Origin: Methanolobus psychrotolerans | Lineage (GTDB): Archaea > Halobacteriota > Methanosarcinia > Methanosarcinales > Methanosarcinaceae | DNA: 64,000 nt | Direction: 5' to 3' | Assembly (NCBI RefSeq): GCF_002243045.1 | Contig: NZ_MBKP01000004.1 | Coordinates: 124,001-188,000 of the forward strand | Shown: positions 51,674 through 52,501 of the stretch, in pieces | Position numbering within the stretch: the stretch's first letter is position 1 | Layout of the letters: every line of letters begins with the position of its first letter | Translations under genes and position numbers: made by a program | The notes under the pieces: generated by a model | Told to the model about the DNA's origin: nothing | Database searches by the model: none | What the model saw: the letters and a program-made list of their open reading frames with translations, nothing else

Positions 51674-52342
51674 TTATCTTATACCTTCACCGGTTATTGT
51701 GAATTCGCAGGTCCTGCCTTCCGGGAGTGAGCGGTGTTTCCAGAGTTTTGCACGTCTTGTGCCCTCTCCTATTTTTTCAAACTGGATGATGGTTTTTGAT
51801 ATGTGCTCGATGCCACTGCCGCCTATCGGTCGTACTGTGCCTGTTGTGATGTCGTTGTATACCTGATTTGTGATGACGGCCACAATCCTGTGTTTGCGCG
51901 CAACGGCATGTACAAATCCTATCTGGTTTGCAAGTTCTCTTCTGGTTCTGATACTTGACTCTTCCTGATCAAGCTCATACCTGTAAAAAGCGGTTGCCGA
52001 ATCTATTAGTATGAGGCCTATTCTGTCTGAGATAAGTTTCTCTATTTCCTTGACAGCAGCGTACTGTTCTTCAAAATTATGGGGTTCGAATATGATTATT
52101 TGCTGTGCTATCTCCTTTGCATTCTCTCCTGCAATCTGTTTGAACCTGTCAGGTGAGATGGCCTCAGTATCTATATAGATGACTTTTTTCCCTTTTTTGA
52201 CACATTCAACAGCAAGCTGGAGGCACAAATTGCTTTTGCCACTTCCGGCTTCTCCATATATCTGTGTCACTACTCCGGTTTCAAATCCTCCTCCAAGAAG
52301 TTCGTCAATAGGCTTGCAGCCGGAACTAAGTTGTTCAGTTAT
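51674..52342 (-). CDS. radB: RadB recombinase paralogue with a non-canonical start
   Basis: 222 residues if initiated at ATA 52342; a GTG at 52270 gives only 198. RadB-type Walker A is GEAGSGKSN, Walker B is LILIDSATAF. Homology to RadB continues upstream of the GTG (ITEQLSSGCKPIDELLGGGF), a stretch needed for the fold, and no ATG, GTG or TTG occurs between there and an in-frame TAA at 52346-52348. The only codons before the ATA are AAG; AAGGGGTG sits 6 bases upstream as a ribosome binding site. RadB assists RadA in recombination. Confidence 0.8.
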   Translation of the reverse strand: MTEQLSSGCKPIDELLGGGFETGVVTQIYGEAGSGKSNLCLQLAVECVKKGKKVIYIDTEAISPDRFKQIAGENAKEIAQQIIIFEPHNFEEQYAAVKEIEKLISDRIGLILIDSATAFYRYELDQEESSIRTRRELANQIGFVHAVARKHRIVAVITNQVYNDITTGTVRPIGGSGIEHISKTIIQFEKIGEGTRRAKLWKHRSLPEGRTCEFTITGEGIR

Positions 52343-52501
52343 CTTTTACACCCCTTGATTGGATTATGTGCTATAATAGAGTTTATGATATACATCTTTT
52401 GGCAATGGTATTGCATTTTTCTTTAAGTGTTTTTCTGTTTGTTTTTTTTTTTTAGTGTGAGTTATCTTTAACTCAAGTGAATCTATATTTTCTAGCAGAA
52501 C

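Follow-up and report, generated by a model that had tools for sequence, protein, structure and literature searches.

The DNA-repair gene radB of Methanolobus psychrotolerans lacks a canonical start codon, and comparative genomics strongly supports AUA as its initiation codon, as the first-pass annotation of this DNA had suggested for the single sequence at hand. The gene lies in the 64,000-nucleotide stretch analyzed here, referred to below as the window (contig NZ_MBKP01000004.1, positions 124,001 to 188,000). When related genomes were searched for the same ATA, the check that the annotation had recommended, the radB start column held ATA in 92 of 94 Methanosarcinaceae genomes and ATC in the other two (both from one genus of this family, f1), and ATG, GTG, or TTG in none; these counts follow a one-codon alignment correction in two of the 94 genomes. 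We consider it likely that radB is translated by genuine, weak, Shine-Dalgarno (SD)-dependent initiation at AUA by an initiator tRNA with a CAU anticodon, and that this start is kept to hold RadB levels low. The family-wide occurrence of the radB AUA and the presence of AUH starts (AUA, AUU, or AUC) in other genes both go beyond what had been noted before.

The radB coding region, from AUA start to stop codon, occupies 51674..52342 on the minus strand, and the 222 codons from the ATA (52340..52342) to the last sense codon (window 51677-52342) give the 222-residue product deduced earlier. Read along the minus strand, AATC-AAGGGGTG (52356-52349) is followed by TAAAAG (52348-52343), the ATA (52342-52340), and then ACTGAACAACTTAGT, the bases directly 3' of the ATA being ACTGAACAACTT. 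The SD sequence AAGGGGTG (52349..52356, minus strand) stands 6 nt ahead of the ATA, just where it had been placed, and the in-frame TAA immediately 5' of the ATA (52346..52348, minus strand) leaves this genome no possible start farther upstream. The annotation was also right that no ATG, GTG, or TTG lies between this stop and codon 25: the first canonical codon after the TAA is the GTG at 52268..52270 (minus strand), codon 25 of the AUA-started frame, which we do not regard as the start. The predicted product scored 251.4 bits against TIGR02237 (equivalog cut-off 172.4), placing it in that family, and chain residues 2-216 of the RadB structure 2cvf, which we take to be the Thermococcus kodakarensis protein, aligned to query residues 5-221 (2.3e-38). 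Homology to RadB reaches residue ∼3–5 of the AUA-started frame, extending upstream of GTG 52270 as had been claimed. Codons 2–24 share the coding signature of the remaining codons (entropies at codon positions 1, 2, and 3 of 0.67, 0.36, and 1.38 vs. 0.48, 0.33, and 1.43 for the rest), and are therefore read as translated.

The relatives compared comprised Methanolobus, Methanococcoides, Methanohalophilus, and other Methanosarcinaceae, including single-contig and independently assembled genomes. Across these many species, a non-canonical triplet held the radB start column in all 94 genomes, each time behind a properly spaced SD-like motif, mostly GAGGTG or GGGGTG; the spacing was 5–7 nt in 92 genomes and 9 nt in two that were read in the uncorrected register, one codon downstream. 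A FastTree tree measuring ∼11.8 substitutions per site in total was built from radB codons other than the start. On it, a single parsimony change accounts for the third base of the start codon, while each of the other 218 codons required at least three (median 19). Ten isoleucine columns elsewhere in radB mixed ATA, ATC, and ATT, with 12–24 third-base changes each, and ATA made up 41% of the other isoleucine codons. Information at the A, T, and A of the start was 2.00, 2.00, and 1.85 bits, and conservation around it peaked in the SD and the ATA, with a variable spacer (−6 to −1) and a variable codon 2. Because its third base changed once, as opposed to 12–24 times in the isoleucine columns, and its flanks vary, the ATA behaves in these alignments not like an isoleucine codon but like a start codon on whose identity selection acts. 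The complete lack of ATG among the 94 genomes, with one change against a median of 19, is the pattern expected of selection against reversion to ATG.

Several other accounts of the conserved triplet were weighed. That an ATG was misread in sequencing, previously offered as the simpler alternative, or garbled in assembly finds no support and is excluded because the identical ATA recurs across the 94 genomes, single-contig and independently assembled ones among them; we assign it a negligible probability. It is also very improbable that translation begins at the downstream GTG (codon 25) or at an upstream GTG, TTG, or ATG, leaving the ATA as an internal isoleucine codon or untranslated. Some genomes do carry an in-frame GTG inside the SD, and many Methanosarcina genomes have an in-frame ATG or TTG 15 codons upstream of the ATA, but the latter sit within a TATA-like block and are not common to all species of the genus. 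A stop closes the upstream frame in many genomes: in 49 of the 94, no canonical codon at all intervenes between the upstream stop and the ATA, and in many others the sole one is the GTG within the SD, which in relatives lies out of frame or has a stop right behind it. On the downstream side, the next canonical codon shifts anywhere from residue 3 to residue 157 across the family, whereas codons 2–24 are under coding constraint and match the solved RadB, and an internal isoleucine codon would be expected to show ATT and ATC. Conversion of the AUA into an AUG-like codon in the mRNA, by editing or modification, would account for the fixation of ATA and is compatible with the DNA data, but the AUU and AUC found in the same columns would require another reaction. 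No such mRNA editor is known to us from archaea, and we regard this explanation as hardly more than nominal.

Marginally less improbable than editing, though still very unlikely, is that the triplet is conserved because it belongs to a regulatory site, in DNA or RNA, that happens to overlap the start. A promoter-like block does lie nearby (about GCCAAAAGATGTATATCATAAACTCTATTA, BRE/TATA-like, 52377..52406, minus strand), in the form GCCAAAAGATGTATATTATAAACC(C/T).ATTATAGCA kept upstream of the ATA in most Methanolobus radB loci and with an analogous block, AAAAAACGTTATATCAT, in Methanosarcina. Against such a site, it is the SD and ATA that hold most of the conservation, the bases between them and codon 2 are less informative, and the distance from SD to ATA varies. 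Since the upstream block can be read as BRE/TATA elements, we infer that the radB transcript would start ∼20–25 nt before the ATA, just upstream of the SD, giving a predicted leader of 20–25 nt. A structured leader occluding the start was considered and rejected, the predicted fold being no stabler than shuffled sequences (z −0.54).

All Met tRNAs typed by ARAGORN in this genome have a CAU anticodon, and one of them combines an A1-U72 pair with a GGG-CCC anticodon stem, presumably the features of an initiator-type tRNA. A dedicated initiator tRNA with a UAU anticodon was sought and rejected: no UAU anticodon occurred among the typed members of the 39 tRNA matches (nine were untyped), and the one initiator-type tRNA reads CAU. 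A 16S rRNA 3' end able to pair with the radB SD, GGCTGGATCACCTCC, is present in four relatives, although the pattern search did not find this tail in the genome itself. RadA appears to start at ATG. In the mechanism we propose, the strong SD would place the small ribosomal subunit at the AUA, and the ordinary initiator Met-tRNA (CAU) would pair with its A and U, leaving the third base mismatched. Because of this mismatch, initiation would be weak and dependent on the SD, and selection would keep AUA over AUG to limit synthesis of this RecA-family recombination mediator. By analogy, the AUA start probably does keep RadB production low, and a low dose is plausible because RadB aids RadA polymerisation; recombination-mediator activity is known for the Haloferax volcanii protein (PMC7776575). 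Conditional control through archaeal initiation factors may be added to this, e.g., through aIF1, which in Sulfolobus favors discrimination against non-canonical starts (PMC6237735). Regulation via the radB AUA is plausible on the bacterial precedents of infC, sigR, and ccpN and on the apparent selection against ATG.

Our survey of radB starts covered one phylum. In f5, another family of the same order, the start column was mostly ATA and otherwise ATT or ATG; it was ATG or ATC in f3, mixed and partly ambiguous in f2 and f4, and ATG in f7, which belongs to the same class. Elsewhere in the phylum, about 99 radB loci nearly always had a canonical start in reach. Three f18 loci (L197, L199, and L200) carry GGGGTGA followed by ATC ATC, an arrangement in which the start is ambiguous between GTG and ATC. 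From this distribution, the AUA start of radB looks old in the Methanosarcinales and fixed in the Methanosarcinaceae. Outside most Methanosarcinaceae it is, as judged from the start columns, not indispensable, because ATC takes its place in two f1 genomes and ATG does so in some of f5.

Whether radB is unique in its start was addressed with an orthologue screen of four Methanolobus genomes. Two Methanolobus genomes gave 347 reciprocal orthologue pairs, of which 22 had no canonical start in common close to the conserved part; most of these proved on inspection to be upstream-frame artefacts, leaving radB, cbiG, an ABC-transporter ATPase, and a PfkB-type sugar kinase with AUH starts and a few genes with CTG. 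The screen thus rejects radB as the only AUH-start gene, and its yield, about 4 per 347 pairs, should be taken as a rough minimum, since the screen was crude. On this contig, with 175 orthologue groups, radB was the sole true case inside the window. A codon enrichment test found six ATA near gene starts where the internal rate predicts about 1.3, a moderate excess in which two of the six were ATAATG. CTG in a likely start column was seen at about 1455241 (minus strand) in genome G002 and in its G004 orthologue, and at about 1508796 (plus strand) in G002; in these cases CTG either alternated with ATG between genomes or stood in both.

Start codons of the three further AUH genes were tallied by eye from tables. 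The ABC-transporter ATPase (L356:1463-2368, equivalent to G002 1445463-1446368, minus strand) had 17 ATA, 11 ATT, and 2 ATC in its start column and no ATG, GTG, or TTG in any of 30 family genomes, most of which showed a GGTGGT/GGTGAT-like SD. For the PfkB-type kinase (L352:7806-8720, equivalent to G002 1371806-1372720, plus strand), which aligns to fructokinase from residue 2 onward, the column held 9 ATA, 2 ATT, and 3 ATG across 14 Methanosarcinaceae genomes. The cbiG gene, which encodes the CbiG N-terminal domain only (G000:C81:58633-59169, L283 18633-19169, plus strand), has no canonical codon from the upstream stop to about codon 32 counted from the ATA, and in all 30 family loci ATA follows GGGAGGTC or GGAGGTC. 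The ATA shares bases with the codons of a Leu-Tyr pair in which cbiF ends; because that overlap partly forces its conservation, cbiG is only a probable AUH-start gene.

Because AUH starts occur in further genes, part of the pattern may reflect tolerance by the initiation machinery and not regulation specific to radB. Taken to its full extent, such tolerance would mean that a lax third base merely permits AUA, AUU, and AUC in the Methanosarcinales, and that AUA initiates radB for historical reasons and has no regulatory value. The three additional gene families are in keeping with this, as is the mixture of ATA, ATT, and ATG in f5 radB and in the PfkB-type kinase, yet we consider it unlikely. 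A neutral ATA should change repeatedly to ATG, a single transition away, and this never happens at radB in the 94 Methanosarcinaceae genomes; ATG is likewise absent from the 30 ABC ATPase sequences. We therefore retain weak initiation at a selected AUA as the reading for radB. More tentatively, and as a proposal that falls just short of an even chance, AUA, AUU, and AUC may form a standing class of weak starts in the Methanosarcinales (radB, the ABC ATPase, the PfkB-type kinase, and probably cbiG), conserved in the family, read by the ordinary initiator tRNA, constituting a layer of control set by archaeal start-codon fidelity factors, and missed by annotation pipelines. Because AUA is held as the radB start across the whole family, annotated starts need checking for radB and probably for other genes of these methanogens. 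The radB AUA would also offer a natural reporter for archaeal start-codon fidelity (aIF1, initiator tRNA), and it opens the question of why a recombination mediator might need sparing production.

Bacteria offer known cases of conserved weak start codons, whereas a natural archaeal AUA start is apparently unreported: a review of archaeal initiation lists no starts other than AUG, GUG, and UUG (PMC7531240), and we found no report in the searchable literature, outside of which most subscription papers fall. The one literature match for AUA and archaea was unrelated, and the Ribo-seq paper on M. mazei mentions neither RadB nor AUA in its main text. An ATG-to-ATA mutation in Halobacterium nadA is on record.

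In E. coli, infC and pcnB have AUU starts with a third-base mismatch that limits translation, as we propose for radB, and initiation in this organism was reportedly measured on all 64 codons by Hecht in 2017. The infC product, IF3, controls expression of its own gene, whereas RadB is not known to act in initiation, so that self-regulation in the manner of infC is not expected. The pcnB AUU start is cited together with IF3 autoregulation in a Staphylococcus aureus study, which describes AUA starts in infC, ccpN, and citZ with a strong SD, reports conservation for ccpN, and puts the reporter output of natural AUA/AUU starts at roughly 10% of that from AUG (PMC13009471). Like these S. aureus genes, radB pairs an AUA start with a strong SD; unlike them (bacterial genes, with IF3 as the discriminator), it is an archaeal recombination gene in a system lacking IF3, and its start is conserved across a whole family. 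The RadB proteins of Haloferax (PMC7776575) and Thermococcus (2cvf) are recombination mediators of the same protein family, and the radB loci read outside the Methanosarcinales differ from those of the Methanosarcinaceae in nearly always having a canonical start in reach. Streptomyces sigR has a conserved, weak GTC start that is needed for correct protein stoichiometry and is repressed by a fidelity factor (PMC5472188); radB shares with it a conserved non-canonical start, whereas sigR uses GTC and encodes a sigma factor in a coupled operon.
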